Assembly: GCA_021783515.1 (NCBI GenBank)
Contig: JAJXTV010000031.1
Span: 1 to 42,439, forward strand
Length of the DNA stretch: 42,439 nt
Reading direction: 5' to 3'
Source of the DNA: Nitrospirota bacterium
Lineage (GTDB): Bacteria > Nitrospirota > Thermodesulfovibrionia > Thermodesulfovibrionales > UBA6898
Under the pieces are notes generated by a model. The model made no database searches. It was not told the origin of the DNA and was given only the letters and a program-made list of their open reading frames with translations. Shown here in pieces: positions 20,941 to 42,257 of the stretch. Each line of letters begins with the position of its first letter. Positions within the stretch are counted from its first letter, which is position 1. The translations under genes and the position numbers were made by a program.

Positions 20941-21323
20941 GACAGCAACCTCAGATTGCCGGCAGCGAGCCGGGGGAGAAGGACCCGGCCGATCTGCTGG
21001 TCGGTCCCGGGGATCTCCTCCGGGAGGTTATCGAAGAGTGCGCGGTTCTCCCGGTAGTGTCTGAGCATATCTTCCTTTTCTTCGATATTGCGGTCGCAGA
21101 TGTCGACCTCGATGTCGAAAGGCCATACGCGCGGCCGGCCCTTCCAGCGGCCTCCCGGCTCGACGATGTAAAGCTCCTGACATATGTAGCAGAGCATAAG
21201 ATCCGTCGAAACCCCGCCGATCCCGATCGGGAAAGCGTTTTCGACCGCGCTCACAACCGCGCTATTGCAGTGAGGGCAGTTCCGCCAGTCCTTGTCACGT
21301 ACCATCTTGAGGGTCTTGTTCAT
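20937..21323 (-). CDS. Zinc-ribbon-like hypothetical protein (128 aa)
   Basis: Cysteine pairs NCPHCNS and LCYICQE, about 25 residues apart, indicate a zinc ribbon at the N-terminus. The C-terminal part is charged (NIEEKEDMLRHYREN). The ATG overlaps the recombinase stop. A regulatory or structural DNA-associated role is likely but unproven. Confidence 0.63.
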   Translation of the reverse strand: MNKTLKMVRDKDWRNCPHCNSAVVSAVENAFPIGIGGVSTDLMLCYICQELYIVEPGGRWKGRPRVWPFDIEVDICDRNIEEKEDMLRHYRENRALFDNLPEEIPGTDQQIGRVLLPRLAAGNLRLLS

Positions 21324-21925
21324 CTCGACTCCACCGCCTCTCTCAATTCCTCCTCGCCAGCCTCGACGTACACGCCTGTCGAGCTCAGCGACGTATGCCC
21401 AAGGAGTTTCTGTACTACAGCCAGAGCCTCCGCCCTGTTTTCGTAGCGCTGGAGGATCCTCTTTGCGAAGCTGTGGCGCATGGAGTGGACCGTGTAGTGC
21501 TCGAGGCCGGCGCGATCGCGCCAGTACGCAAATACCTCCTGCAGCGCCCTTGCCGAAAGACGCGCGCCCTTCTTTGAAATAAAGAGGGGCGCGTCGTCGC
21601 TGATCGCTTCGCGCCAGGTAAGCTTCAGGGAAAGAAACCGTTTGATCGCCGCCTGCAGCTTCTTGCTGAGCGGCACCATGCGCCCCCTGGCCTTCTTCGT
21701 GCCGTCCGCCTGGCGTATCGTCGCCTTCGTCGTCTCGGGCCTGACGAAGAGCTTGTCCTTGCCTCTCACGTCGCCGATGTTTAGGCCGGTGATCTCCGAT
21801 AGTCTCAGCCCTGTATTGAACCCCAAAACCAGAATCATCGAATCCCGTTCCGCCTTTTTCCCTTTGACGTCTGCTGCCGTCCGGAGCAGTTGTTTCTCCT
21901 CTTTATCAGATAAATACTTCATCAT
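21320..21925 (-). CDS. Single-domain tyrosine recombinase (catalytic domain only)
   Basis: About 201 residues, far shorter than the usual 300-400. Catalytic residues are present: GLRLSEI (Arg I), HSMRHSF (His-x-x-Arg), LLGHTSLSSTGVY (His and Tyr). The N-terminal core-binding domain is absent. GGAGGAAGG precedes ATG 21,925 at good spacing; the ATG at 21,943 would itself contain that ribosome site. Such minimal recombinases include fimbrial invertases of the FimB/FimE type and small phage resolvases, so DNA inversion or multimer resolution is possible. Confidence 0.82.
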   Translation of the reverse strand: MMKYLSDKEEKQLLRTAADVKGKKAERDSMILVLGFNTGLRLSEITGLNIGDVRGKDKLFVRPETTKATIRQADGTKKARGRMVPLSKKLQAAIKRFLSLKLTWREAISDDAPLFISKKGARLSARALQEVFAYWRDRAGLEHYTVHSMRHSFAKRILQRYENRAEALAVVQKLLGHTSLSSTGVYVEAGEEELREAVESR

Positions 21926-22018
21926 GGCTGTGCCTTCCTCCATGTGCCTCTGATTCGTCGCCTAAGCCCGCCGAAGCGGGCAGGGAAGGCCGAGGCTGGC
22001 CTTGTCGGGCTGCAGGCC

Positions 22019-23457: not shown

Positions 23458-23937
23458 ATGCGCGATATTAAAAATATTAATGAACGCATAAAAGCGTTCA
23501 GGATCAACAAGGGGTACAGCCAACAATATGTTTCGCATGCCCTCGGCATCTCTCAGGGCTATCTATCGGAGATCGAGGCAGGCACCAAAACGCCATCAAC
23601 CCGCCTGCTGCTGTCGATAATCGGCAGATGGGAATTGCGGTCGGACTGGCTCTTCGAAGGCAAAGGAGAAATGTTCCTGCCGAAAGTCTCGGAAGAACCG
23701 GCACAATACGGCACAGGGATCTGCAGCGAGGAGATAAAAGAGCTGTGGCAGAAGCTGGAGTATATTTTTGAGCATGGCAAAGACGAGGACATAACGACGC
23801 TGTTCGGCATCACTGAGCGGATCATGAGCCGGATAGGCAGGGAAGGCGGGGGAGAGGCAAACGAGGGATCGGATCGTGAGCCTGAGCGATTTCCGGGATC
23901 GGAAAAAGCGGCGGGCAAAGTGCAAAAACCAGCTTGA
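23458..23937 (+). CDS. XRE-family (CI-like) transcriptional repressor
   Basis: The protein has 159 residues. Residues 8-62 form a lambda-repressor-type helix-turn-helix (GYSQQYVSHALGISQGYLSEIE, then AGTKTPSTRLLLSII). The remainder is helical with no peptidase catalytic set, so it is not a self-cleaving CI. AAGGA stands about 10 bp before the ATG. Position beside the integrase and divergent to the early operon identifies it as the likely lysogeny repressor. Confidence 0.85.
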   Translation: MRDIKNINERIKAFRINKGYSQQYVSHALGISQGYLSEIEAGTKTPSTRLLLSIIGRWELRSDWLFEGKGEMFLPKVSEEPAQYGTGICSEEIKELWQKLEYIFEHGKDEDITTLFGITERIMSRIGREGGGEANEGSDREPERFPGSEKAAGKVQKPA

Positions 23938-24058
23938 TCTGTTCGAGTGCGCGGATTGTAGTTGCAAAATGGAGCTGACGAATCTCAAGGCCTCTGCAGT
24001 CAACGCCTTCGCGCGCATCGAGCGAGAACTCGCGCGCCTGAAGGGGATGCTGTTCTGA
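23876..24058 (+). CDS. Small helical protein between repressor and integrase (60 aa)
   Basis: Starts at GTG 23,876 inside the repressor tail with AGGGA upstream, and its TGA overlaps the integrase ATG (TGATG). The sequence has a basic N-terminus (FRDRKKRRAKCKNQ) and FECADCSCKMEL with three cysteines. It may be an excisionase-like or accessory factor; nothing more specific can be seen. Confidence 0.58.
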   Translation: MSLSDFRDRKKRRAKCKNQLDLFECADCSCKMELTNLKASAVNAFARIERELARLKGMLF

Positions 24059-25146
24059 TGTCCGTCTTTCTCCGAAACGGCAGGTGGGTTGTCGACTATT
24101 GGCCTCAGGGCCGCAGGGGCCGCAGAATCCGCATGACCCTCCCGGAAAATATCCGCGAGCGGGAAGAGGCCGGGGCGATCGAGCGCGAACTCCGCAAGGC
24201 GGCGCGGCCAACAGAGCTCGAAGTCCCGAAGAACAGAACCGTCGAAGACCTCTCCCGGGAATACCTCGATTGGTATGACTTGCACCGTTCACCCACGACA
24301 TATCGCGACTGTGAGGGCGTCTTCCGGAATCACATTCGCCCCCACCTCGGCGCCTATATTGCGGACGATATCTCGCCCACCCATGTCAATATCTATAAAC
24401 GCATGCGCAAAGGCGAGGGCGGCAAGAACCGTACGATCTCGAAAGAGCTCAATTACTTCTCGGGCTTTCTTACCTGGGGGGCCAAGAATGGCCACCTTAC
24501 CAAAAGAAACTTTTCGATCGAAAAGCTTCCTTACACTCGGCCGATACCGATCGTCCTGACCCTGAATGAAGCGGTGAAGATCATCAGGGCGGCTGAGCCC
24601 TTCTATCGTGTGATTATACTGATGCTCTTTACCTGCGGCGTACGCCTCAAAGAGGCGCGCCTGCTGAAGTGGACAGATGTCGATTTCAAAAAGCGGACGA
24701 TCCGCATACTGCGCAAAGGCGGCAAGGAAAACATCCTGCCGGTCATCGACTGGCTGCACGACGAGCTGAAGGCCCTGCGCAAGACAAATCGATCGGACTG
24801 GGTATTCCTCTCCCGGGTCCGGGACGATATCCCCGTAACTGATATACGCAAGGCGATCGAGCGGGCAAGGAAGAAGTCCGGCATCGAGAAGAGAGTCTAT
24901 GCCCATCTCTTCAGGCATAGCATGGCCACCCATCTTCTCGAAAGCGGCGTAGACTCTCGGCGCATCCAGGAGATCCTCGGTCACGCCCAGCTAAGCACCA
25001 CCGAGTTCTATACTCAGGTCGCCGTGGGCATCAAGAAAAAAGCGCTCGACCAGGGAAAGATCAGCTCCATAACCGCCGGGAAAAGAAGCCGTGAAACTGC
25101 AGCGTCTACAAAAAGCCGCCCCAAAAAGCCATTGCGTCTACAGTAA
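24058..25146 (+). CDS. Site-specific tyrosine integrase of the element
   Basis: The protein has 362 residues. An arm-binding-like beta-rich N-terminus (FLRNGRWVVDYWPQGRRG) precedes a core-binding domain and a catalytic domain with GVRLKEARLL (Arg I), HLFRHSMAT (His-x-x-Arg) and GHAQLSTTEFYTQ (His, Tyr nucleophile). The start at 24,058 overlaps the preceding stop; an earlier ATG at 23,962 only extends into that gene's frame. The gene ends 40 bp from the tRNA-Arg half, as expected for the enzyme that integrates the element there. Confidence 0.92.
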   Translation: MSVFLRNGRWVVDYWPQGRRGRRIRMTLPENIREREEAGAIERELRKAARPTELEVPKNRTVEDLSREYLDWYDLHRSPTTYRDCEGVFRNHIRPHLGAYIADDISPTHVNIYKRMRKGEGGKNRTISKELNYFSGFLTWGAKNGHLTKRNFSIEKLPYTRPIPIVLTLNEAVKIIRAAEPFYRVIILMLFTCGVRLKEARLLKWTDVDFKKRTIRILRKGGKENILPVIDWLHDELKALRKTNRSDWVFLSRVRDDIPVTDIRKAIERARKKSGIEKRVYAHLFRHSMATHLLESGVDSRRIQEILGHAQLSTTEFYTQVAVGIKKKALDQGKISSITAGKRSRETAASTKSRPKKPLRLQ

Positions 25147-25511: not shown

Positions 25512-25853
25512 ATGATTTGCGAGACCGACAAGCTGGATGTTCTGAAGGTTCTTGCTCATCCGGTGAGAATTCAGATCCTTGAGGAACTGAGCAAGGGCGT
25601 GAAATGCGTGAGCGACCTGGAAGACTTCTTCGAGATCCGTCAGTCCAATATCTCCCAGCACCTGTCGCTGCTCAGGAGGTATGACCTGATCGACTATTAT
25701 ATAGACGGAAGACTTCGTTGTTATTTTCTCAAAGACCCTTTTATCCCGGATCTTCTGCAACTTCTCGGGAAAAGATATGAGGGCGACCTGCCGGCACCCG
25801 CATGCTGTCCTGTAACCAAGAAGGGGAAATATCCGGGCGACAGGAGGAATTGA
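25512..25853 (+). CDS. ArsR-family repressor, SqrR/BigR-like sulfide/persulfide sensor
   Basis: The protein has 113 residues. A winged helix runs through residues 8-75 (AHPVRIQILEEL, IRQSNISQHLSLLRRYDLIDYYIDGRLRCYFL). Cys32 (GVKCVSDL) and Cys98/99 (PACCP) are 66 residues apart, the spacing of the two redox-active cysteines in SqrR and BigR, which form a di- or tetrasulfide with persulfides. It is preceded by AGGAGG and heads an operon with DsrE/F/H-like proteins and SQR, which fits this sensing role. Metal sensing is the main alternative. Confidence 0.85.
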   Translation: MICETDKLDVLKVLAHPVRIQILEELSKGVKCVSDLEDFFEIRQSNISQHLSLLRRYDLIDYYIDGRLRCYFLKDPFIPDLLQLLGKRYEGDLPAPACCPVTKKGKYPGDRRN

Positions 25854-25902: not shown

Positions 25903-26247
25903 ATGGAGAGAGAAATCGTGATGTTTCTGTCAACAACCCCTTACAGCTTCGAGAATACGCACACTCTTGTCAGACTCGCAGATGCGGCACTGAGGAAGGG
26001 CAGGAAGGTAAGGCTGGTGGCGTCAGGAGACGGGGTCTTCTCGGTGGTAAAAGGGCAGGTGCCTCAGGCCCTTTCCGCACTTGAGGATCTGGTAACCAGG
26101 GGGCTGAAGGTGGACATATGAACGGGCTGTTTGAAGACCCGCGGTCTTGCGGGGGAGGACTCGGTAGAAGGCGGAGAAATGAGCTCGCTGAAGGGACTCT
26201 TCAACGTTATCAGTATGCAACCGGTATTTCTTAACTTTGGTGTATAG
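25903..26247 (+). CDS. DsrE-like sulfurtransferase, probable selenoprotein (TGA read as Sec73)
   Basis: The frame 25,903-26,118 encodes 72 residues of a DsrE/TusD-type fold, then TGA, then 41 further codons in the same frame (TGCLKTRGLAGEDSVEGG, LKGLFNVISMQPVFLNF) to TAG at 26,245. The full 114 residues equal the family length. The TGA falls at the catalytic cysteine position: DsrE proteins read C, then R, G eight residues on, here Sec-T-G-C-L-K-T-R-G. A GGUCUU loop on a CCCGC/GCGGG stem begins 21 nt after the TGA. The next gene starts 8 bp beyond the TAG, as expected if the whole frame is used. A nonsense mutation is the alternative, but the undamaged downstream frame argues against it. Confidence 0.8.
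26119..26153 (+). promoter_or_regulatory. Candidate bacterial SECIS element
   Basis: The stem CCCGC/GCGGG (26,138-26,153) carries the six-base loop GGUCUU, 21 nt after the TGA. The E. coli fdhF SECIS exposes GGUCU about 18 nt after its UGA. A competing hairpin, AAGACC-CGC-GGTCTT, can form in the same bases, so the structure needs testing. Confidence 0.65.
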
Positions 26248-26255
26248 GAGGCCCC

Positions 26256-26609
26256 ATGGGAAACATAAGCATAATCCTGAGAAGGCCCCCCTACGGCACC
26301 GCCGACGCTTCCGAGGCGGTCAGACATCTGCTCGGAGCAGCAGCTGAAGGCCTGTCCGCGAAACTCATACTGGTAGATGGGGGAGCGGTCGTTGCAAGAA
26401 AAGGGCAGAACACGGGGGCGACCGAGTATCTCAGTATCGAAGCGGGTATCGTCGACTGCATTGATATGGGAGCGGCGGTCTACGTGGACGAAAAGTCACT
26501 GGACGAGGCTTTGTTGAAGGCCGAGGACCTTGTGGATGGCGTCAAAATCTCAAGCAGCGCCGAAATTGCAGAGATCCTCAGAATGTCTGACACAACGATG
26601 ATCTTTTGA
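26256..26609 (+). CDS. DsrE/DsrF-family protein (117 aa)
   Basis: The length and Rossmann-like pattern match the DsrE/F group (MGNISIILRRPPYGTADASEAVRHLL, then SAKLILVDGGAVVA). It has one cysteine (IVDCIDMG). GGAGG lies 6 bp upstream of ATG 26,256. Placed between the Sec-containing DsrE-like and the DsrH-like genes, it is the probable DsrF/TusC-like partner of a heterohexameric sulfur-carrier complex in the cytoplasm. Confidence 0.8.
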   Translation: MGNISIILRRPPYGTADASEAVRHLLGAAAEGLSAKLILVDGGAVVARKGQNTGATEYLSIEAGIVDCIDMGAAVYVDEKSLDEALLKAEDLVDGVKISSSAEIAEILRMSDTTMIF

Positions 26610-26624: not shown

Positions 26625-26912
26625 ATGCTCGTTATCGTCAAGAGCGGCCCTGACACGCCTGAGGGCAGGAGAGGAGCAGGCCTTGCGGGGGATATGGCCG
26701 CGGCAGTCGTTCTTCTTCAAAACGGCGTCTATTTTATGCAGGGTTCGAAACTCGCCGATGCCGGATTTTCGGGAAAGACCTATCTGCTCGAGGACGACAG
26801 GGTGTTGAGAGGTCTGAGCAAGGATACTGAAAAAGCAAACATTGAATATATCGATTATGACGGCCTCGTTGACCTGATAAGCGAAAGCGACAAAGTGATG
26901 GGCATGTTTTAA
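26625..26912 (+). CDS. DsrH/TusB-family protein (95 aa)
   Basis: A small protein of TusB/DsrH size that begins MLVIVKSGPDTPEGRRGAG and ends YDGLVDLISESDKVMGMF, a typical DsrH-type ending. The usual DsrH cysteine is not present. AGGGAGGGG precedes the ATG. With its two neighbours it completes a DsrEFH-like set that passes sulfane sulfur between proteins. Confidence 0.78.
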   Translation: MLVIVKSGPDTPEGRRGAGLAGDMAAAVVLLQNGVYFMQGSKLADAGFSGKTYLLEDDRVLRGLSKDTEKANIEYIDYDGLVDLISESDKVMGMF

Positions 26913-27004: not shown

Positions 27005-28192
27005 GTGGCGAGAATAATGATATTAGGCGGTTCCTTCGGAGGACTCACGGCGGCCTTGGAGCTGAAAAGGCTTCTCGGGAAGAAGGCGGATATCACCGTT
27101 GTAAGCGAAGACGACAAATTCGTATTCGTTCCCTCGCTTCCCTGGCTTTCGATGGGCTGGAGGAAGGCAGTTGATATCACGTTCCCCCTGAAACAGACCC
27201 TGGGACAAAGAGGCATAACGTTTATCCATGAAAAGGCAAAAGGGGTGGATGCCGATAACTCCAAACTCATAACTGGGACGAATGAGCTGCCATATGATTA
27301 TCTTGTCGTATCGACCGGGCCCTGCCTTGCTTACGAGGAAGTGCCGGGTCTCGGCCCCGACGGAGGACATACGGAAAGTATATTCACTCTCGGGCATGCG
27401 GAAAAGGCATATAAAGCCTGGGAAAGGTTCCTTGAAAACCCCGGGGCTGTCGTCATTGGCTCGGTTCAGGGGGTAAGCTGCTTCGGCCCCTCCTATGAAT
27501 ACGCTTTTGAAATAGATGCCGAGCTTCGCAGAAGGAAGATCAGAAGTAAGGTGCCCATCGTCTTCGTTACTTCCGAACCCTACATCGGCCATTTTGGCAT
27601 AGGGGGGGTGCGGAACTCCAGGAGGATGATGGAAGACGAGTTTGCAAAGAGGGATATCAAGGTTGTGGTCAATAGTGCGGTCCAGGAGATCGCGCCGGGT
27701 GAAGTTGTCCTGAAAGACGGGGCAAAGATCCCTTTTCAGCTTTCTATGTTTGCGCCGGCCATGAAAGGGGTTCCGGCAGTCGCTCCCCTCGGCAATCCGC
27801 GCGGCTTCATTTCTGTTGACGGAAGATACAGGCATAGGCAGCACAAAAACATCTTCGCTGTCGGCGTCGCGGTAGCAATTGCCCCGCCTGAACCGACACC
27901 GGTCCCGACCGGCGTTCCCAAGACCGGGTTTATGACTGTCAGGATGGCCAAGACGGCCGCGCGTGCCATTGAGTCAGATATAACCGGAGAATCGGCCCCT
28001 GCCGAAACGGCCATCGATGTCCTGTGCCTCATGGATATGGGGAATACGGCCGCGTTTATGAAGGCCGCCCCCGTGCTGCCCCCAAGACAGGAGTCGGCTT
28101 TCAGGGAAGGCAAACGGTTTAAATGGGGCAAGGCAGCCTTCGAAAGATATTTCCTCTGGAAGATGAGGCATGGATTGAGCGGTCTGCCGTGA
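27005..28192 (+). CDS. sqr: Sulfide:quinone oxidoreductase (SQR) family flavoprotein
   Basis: The protein has 395 residues and starts at GTG 27,005 after GGAGGT. The FAD-binding motif is MILGGSFGGLTAALEL at residues 5-20. Cys159 (GVSCFGPSYEY) and Cys341 (IDVLCLMDMGN) correspond to the two redox cysteines of SQR. A third, Cys107, follows VVSTGP. The C-terminal segment is basic and amphipathic (FERYFLWKMRHG), suited to peripheral membrane attachment. SQR oxidises sulfide to polysulfide or persulfide and reduces quinone; the DsrEFH-like proteins upstream would accept or relay that sulfur. Confidence 0.88.
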   Translation: MARIMILGGSFGGLTAALELKRLLGKKADITVVSEDDKFVFVPSLPWLSMGWRKAVDITFPLKQTLGQRGITFIHEKAKGVDADNSKLITGTNELPYDYLVVSTGPCLAYEEVPGLGPDGGHTESIFTLGHAEKAYKAWERFLENPGAVVIGSVQGVSCFGPSYEYAFEIDAELRRRKIRSKVPIVFVTSEPYIGHFGIGGVRNSRRMMEDEFAKRDIKVVVNSAVQEIAPGEVVLKDGAKIPFQLSMFAPAMKGVPAVAPLGNPRGFISVDGRYRHRQHKNIFAVGVAVAIAPPEPTPVPTGVPKTGFMTVRMAKTAARAIESDITGESAPAETAIDVLCLMDMGNTAAFMKAAPVLPPRQESAFREGKRFKWGKAAFERYFLWKMRHGLSGLP

Positions 28193-42170: not shown

Positions 42171-42257
42171 GCCGCAACCACCGAAAGGGTAAGATCCGGG
42201 TGACCGGACTGCACAAAGCCACCTGTCCGGGATGGAAAGAGGGGTTGTCGAAGTGGA
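42171..42257 (+). ncRNA. GEMM-type cyclic dinucleotide riboswitch
   Basis: The layout matches the GEMM-I class: GAAAGGGTAA, a first hairpin TCCGG-GTGA-CCGGA with a GNRA loop, then CACAAAGCCAC, a second arm, and closing GGGTTGTCGAAG (compare GGGUUGCCGAA in known members). Outer CAACC and GGTTG can pair. GEMM-I binds c-di-GMP or, in a variant, 3',3'-cGAMP; which ligand cannot be told by eye. A terminator follows 12 bp later, giving an on/off switch for the exported protein. Confidence 0.75.

Follow-up and report, generated by a model that had tools for sequence, protein, structure and literature searches.

DsrE-like selenoproteins with a UxxC motif were reported in 2005 from the Sargasso Sea and in 2006 from Desulfovibrio vulgaris; WP_014524487.1 is a further entry for the family. 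A 2026 review counts them among the families with largely uncharacterized functions. Compared by description only, this family shares with the locus discussed here the Pfam DsrE domain, the UxxC motif, pairs of Sec and Cys forms, and a SECIS with a small G-containing loop. Since such proteins have been known for this long, the one described below belongs to a known kind. The accessible portions of those reports do not describe a gene setting like the one presented here.

The other systems to consider are the Cys-type sulfurtransferases. Cys78 of DsrE from A. vinosum is the residue proven to bind and pass on sulfur (PMC3397948). Its position is shared by the type I DsrEFH and TusBCD systems. 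In DsrEFH type II, from the YTD cluster of cable bacteria, the active residue is Cys67 and the genes are linked to tusA and yeeE/yedE (PMC13293266). That 2026 survey of DsrEFH used HMMs of Cys-type proteins, never mentions selenium, and blamed sequencing error for its few sequences without Cys (PMC13293266). No report of a Sec-containing DsrE in a gene set of DsrEFH and sulfide:quinone reductase (SQR) was found in the open-access literature.

The window considered here is the whole stretch of 42,439 nucleotides that was analysed, from a Nitrospirota bacterium. Its relevant features are collected in Table 1. The ATG at 25903 is preceded by a strong Shine-Dalgarno sequence. The plain open reading frame has 72 residues and ends at a TGA, just as the original prediction said standard annotation would have it. 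Ordinary annotation takes this UGA as a stop, so the protein would be shortened. Past the TGA the frame stays open until the TAG at 26245-26247. The read-through protein matches Pfam DsrE (PF02635) with 43.1 bits against a cut-off of 22.7. The match covers residues 6-105 of 114, nearly the whole protein. The claimed UxxC motif is there in translation, as UTGC. No NCBIfam model names a Sec-DsrE subfamily.

Table 1. Features of the putative selenoprotein locus (positions in the window)
Feature	Position	Strand	Remarks
ArsR-family regulator	25512..25853	+	Cys32, Cys70, Cys98 and Cys99; HTH_metalloreg (NCBIfam) over cut-off, BigR under
dsrE(Sec), predicted DsrE-like selenoprotein gene	25903..26247	+	114 residues, Sec73, motif UTGC
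UGA codon 73, predicted to be read as Sec; equivalent of DsrE Cys78	26119..26121	+	alignment, locus comparison
Candidate SECIS hairpin	26137..26154	+	6-bp stem, loop GGUCUU at 26143-26148; alignment fold, covariation
DsrF-like (DsrE/DsrF family)	26256..26609	+	Pfam DsrE 48.7 bits; DsrF 2hy5_B E 0.0011
DsrH-like	26625..26912	+	Pfam DsrH 41.6 bits, cut-off 24.4; no cysteine in window copy
Sulfide:quinone reductase-like flavoprotein	27005..28192	+	Cys159 and Cys341; E 1.3e-97 to 3sz0

In the profile alignment Sec73 falls on the Cys of LDMVVCVAAAQRRG in DsrE (2hy5_A), residue 78 by count, and on its counterpart in TusD. The claim that Sec sits at the catalytic cysteine therefore holds. The AlphaFold2 model has a mean pLDDT of 77.6 and is weak at 84-94; residue 73 ends a strand. 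After re-alignment the ten best PDB matches (Z 9.0-11.1) are DsrE/DsrF-family, YchN or Tus proteins, and they include uncharacterised proteins and one design. Matches to designed pentatricopeptide repeats were rejected as false; a broader alignment ranks them below the true DsrE relatives. With these set aside, the best PDB relative by sequence is E. coli YchN (1jx7), whose entry is labelled 'hypothetical protein'. It has a CxxC in place of the UxxC, with Cys and not Sec.

We argue that UGA codon 73 is almost certainly decoded as Sec, which would then be inserted into DsrE. In the related loci compared (the 80 best among 92 confirmed relatives, from a scan of named genomes with peptide patterns built from the Nitrospirota clade itself) the TGA falls at the identical codon with the frame intact in 80 of 80. 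All are labelled as Nitrospirota or a lineage therein except two 'uncultured bacterium' records. The TGA is followed by xGC in all but one locus, L122, which has xAC. Exactly one TGA is found in 39 matches among 61 relatives, the window's own counted. A sample of 396 genomes of the phylum gave 99 single-TGA matches in 92 genomes, with the position of the TGA checked residue by residue in the fetched loci. One of the 99 also extends into its terminal TAA. A match in G158 that starts just past the residue, at a contig end, was left out of the counts. Some genomes have two TGA-bearing copies each (G052, G073, G124, G285, G287, G307 and G345), which means that the two clades can coexist in one genome.

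The stop-free homologues tell the same residue from the other side. Cys occupies the Sec73 position in 15 of the 15 that were checked over it, a count that leaves out weaker stop-free matches covering part of the model. They comprise four close orthologues with CGTC, all from one family of the phylum, and eleven remote ones. None of the homologues ends at this point, as they would if the stop were genuine; they continue with TGA or have Cys at the exact residue. Within clade I, pN/pS is 0.13 upstream of the TGA and 0.19 downstream, and a value of 0.19 means that the downstream part is protein-coding. Judged from the sequences, the shared TGA, the phylum-wide matches and the pN/pS values put the pattern far beyond chance. 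The tree has two Sec/Cys changes, and it fits either the loss of Sec in the Cys group or a separate gain of Sec.

The original prediction presupposed a host with selA, selB, selC and selD, and all of them are in the host genome, which is 98.7% complete. Here selA and selB share one contig and are less than 1 kb apart. The tRNA-Sec scores 67.6 bits; the window itself has no tRNA genes. The selD gene (L052, contig 22) has an in-frame TGA in CAG-TGA-AAK, so the SelD of this host is probably itself a selenoprotein. Across the sample, 88 of 92 TGA genomes have SelB versus 85 of 304 others, with kinship uncorrected. Two of the four TGA genomes without detected SelB are less than 80% complete. Among the 15 Cys-type genomes a full SelB is found only in G071, and G101 has a fragment that is possibly SelB. 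Since G071 (L138) has a full SelB yet carries the Cys form, its Cys cannot be put down to a lost Sec machinery.

A bacterial SECIS is a stem-loop right after the UGA with a G in a small loop (PMC1088965), and the window hairpin has this form. The GGUCUU-loop hairpin was predicted to lie at the right distance, and it does: 26137-26142 pairs with 26149-26154, and the loop starts 21 nt past the TGA. Five of the six pairs form in the window copy. All sequences examined can accommodate a 6-bp stem and a 6-nt loop at a constant 21 nt past the TGA, and RNAalifold recovers the hairpin unaided from the alignment. Pairing is found in 91.3% of cells, against 40-52% when the hairpin is slid. The pairs covary, with 49 cells changed on both sides, a number equalled in none of 500 shuffles. 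Synonymous-codon shuffles that kept the protein and used family codon frequencies pair at 61.2% versus 91.6% in the real sequences (z 18.6). Synonymous divergence is 0.20 in codons 79-85 and 0.77 after them. In the four Cys orthologues the hairpin has decayed, with 12 of 24 pairs left. The minimum-energy structure of the window's isolated 52-nt RNA, folded as a single sequence, lacks the hairpin and prefers another fold. Rfam matched no RNA family at the TGA and hairpin site at the gathering score. It must also be said that the L122 copy (730-777) has the loop CAUGCA, without the G that all other copies have near the loop start.

It is worth considering what else the UGA could be. If it were a true stop, the gene would encode a 72-residue protein, be a pseudogene or contain a sequencing error, and the plain reading frame does end there. 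However, this requires the same accident in all 80 compared loci, purifying selection past the end of the protein, a conserved hairpin in untranslated sequence, and a Cys at that very place in the stop-free homologues. The pseudogene reading was rejected on these grounds, and we find a true stop of any sort very hard to believe. An open frame alone would also permit a changed genetic code, in which TGA is an ordinary amino acid such as Trp. But TGA ends the neighbouring ArsR gene (25853) and DsrF gene (26609), the homologues have Cys, and both tRNA-Sec and SelB are present. TGA as Trp was rejected for the same reasons, and the chance of a changed code is negligible.

The prediction also placed the gene in a sulfide-oxidation setting, and this is right because the fourth gene is clearly a sulfide:quinone reductase. 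Counting the window, clustering of the loci gives 69 with the DsrF-like gene, 58 with the DsrH-like gene and 64 with SQR, all lowered by contig ends and overlapping false ORFs. The DsrF-like gene comes after the Sec gene in most loci. The order dsrE-dsrF-sqr is kept in four of four Cys orthologues, and dsrH was detected in two. Many relatives add DsrE2-like, MMPL transporter, LolA-like and DUF1302 proteins, none of which follows SQR in the window. SQR has Cys159 in 62 and Cys341 in 55 of 64 homologues, and we take these two to be the catalytic redox pair. A third conserved Cys of SQR, present in 62 of 64 homologues, is replaced by Ser at residue 125 in the window copy. The ArsR regulator is close upstream in most loci and its four cysteines are invariant (56 of 56). 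Known sulfane-sulfur sensors include ArsR regulators that have two conserved Cys (PMC12423496). Sequence comparison supports three things: the exchange of Sec and Cys at the predicted sulfur-binding residue, the set of genes, and the two SQR redox cysteines. What seems to be unreported is the setting of dsrE(Sec): a conserved set, dsrE(Sec)-dsrF-dsrH-sqr, that occurs across the Nitrospirota and in most cases has a gene for a Cys-rich ArsR next to it.

Elsewhere in the window, two ORFs, 21320-21943 (-) and 23962-25146 (+), look like tyrosine recombinases by eye. They are near an ORF at 23458-23937 that is helix-turn-helix-like, also by eye, and the group lies shortly before the ArsR gene. The operon may adjoin a mobile element. 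A c-di-GMP-I riboswitch aptamer scores above the Rfam gathering score at 42178-42252 (+), near the window end. The host genome also has dsrA and dsrC, and a separate Cys-type dsrH-dsrE-dsrF-tusA cluster (L155, contig 3, 13500-22500).

How does this set relate to the described ones? It shares the fold, the position of the active residue, and F- and H-like neighbours with type I DsrEFH and TusBCD. It differs from them in having Sec for Cys, an extra Cys76 and SQR as a neighbour. The window E, F and H proteins all fall under the cut-offs of the NCBIfam models TusD/DsrE, TusC/DsrF and TusB/DsrH. Cys20 of DsrH is missing too, as this protein has no Cys at all in the window. Since the Cys on which DsrH depends in A. 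vinosum is absent, and F and H are under the NCBIfam cut-offs, we only infer the complex and the relay. The set resembles type II in being a divergent DsrEFH-like set in dsrA-bearing bacteria. However, the type II linkage with tusA and yeeE/yedE is missing, and the genes next to it encode ArsR and SQR. It is the Cys-type cluster on contig 3 of the host that resembles the type II/YTD set.

We consider it quite probable that the whole picture is as follows. Comparison of sequences strongly supports its first part: UGA-73 is read as Sec by SelA, SelB, SelC and SelD with a SECIS inside the gene, this Sec replaces the sulfur-binding Cys of DsrE/TusD, and the gene opens a conserved dsrE(Sec)-dsrF-dsrH-sqr set. 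The rest would be an EFH relay, in which the three Dsr-like proteins would form a DsrEFH-like complex. SQR would convert sulfide to polysulfide or persulfide, and the DsrE selenolate would take one sulfane sulfur from the polysulfide as Se-S-. DsrC, TusA or another acceptor would then receive this sulfur. With Sec, DsrE may be the more reactive sulfur acceptor that the original prediction had in mind. Alternatively, HS- would be freed as Sec73 forms a selenenylsulfide with Cys76. ArsR would open the operon upon a rise in reactive sulfur. Sulfur relay as the main job of DsrE(Sec), with chemistry that we infer, is a reading we favour by a little.

The Sec could be real and the protein still be mainly a redox enzyme, a persulfide/polysulfide or disulfide reductase that works through a UxxC selenenylsulfide instead of carrying sulfur. 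Cys76 is invariant in a 36-sequence alignment, but no Cys is found at this place in DsrE or TusD. Cys76 lies outside the DsrE/TusD site and may point to redox chemistry. YchN with its CxxC and the absent Cys of DsrH are in line with this. Against it, the neighbours are DsrF- and DsrH-like and not a reductase partner, and the adjoining SQR makes sulfane sulfur. We doubt that reduction is the main role, but the invariance of Cys76 keeps it open. Another role can be drawn from YedF, which has a DsrE-like domain with CGxC and has been linked to selenium metabolism (PMC5322559): the protein could handle selenium and not sulfur, as has been proposed for YedF. However, the neighbours are sulfur genes and not selenium genes, and Cys orthologues are found in genomes without detected SelB. 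Selenium handling is therefore improbable.

Where microbes carry dsrAB, DsrEFH is used to tell in which direction their sulfur metabolism runs. Ordinary gene calling cuts a Sec-containing E subunit at the UGA, so a complete set can be overlooked. We tentatively suggest that the set may be a third class of DsrEFH sulfurtransferase, one that depends on selenium, goes with SQR and is widespread in the Nitrospirota, with Sec in place of the sulfur-carrying Cys of DsrE. If so, these Nitrospirota would need selenium for one step in the oxidation or detoxification of sulfide, and surveys based on annotation would easily miss the class. Natural pairs of Sec and Cys orthologues share this gene setting, and comparing them would directly test what advantage selenium has over sulfur in persulfide chemistry. 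If the relay role is true, selenium would occupy the key residue for sulfur trafficking in a large phylum.
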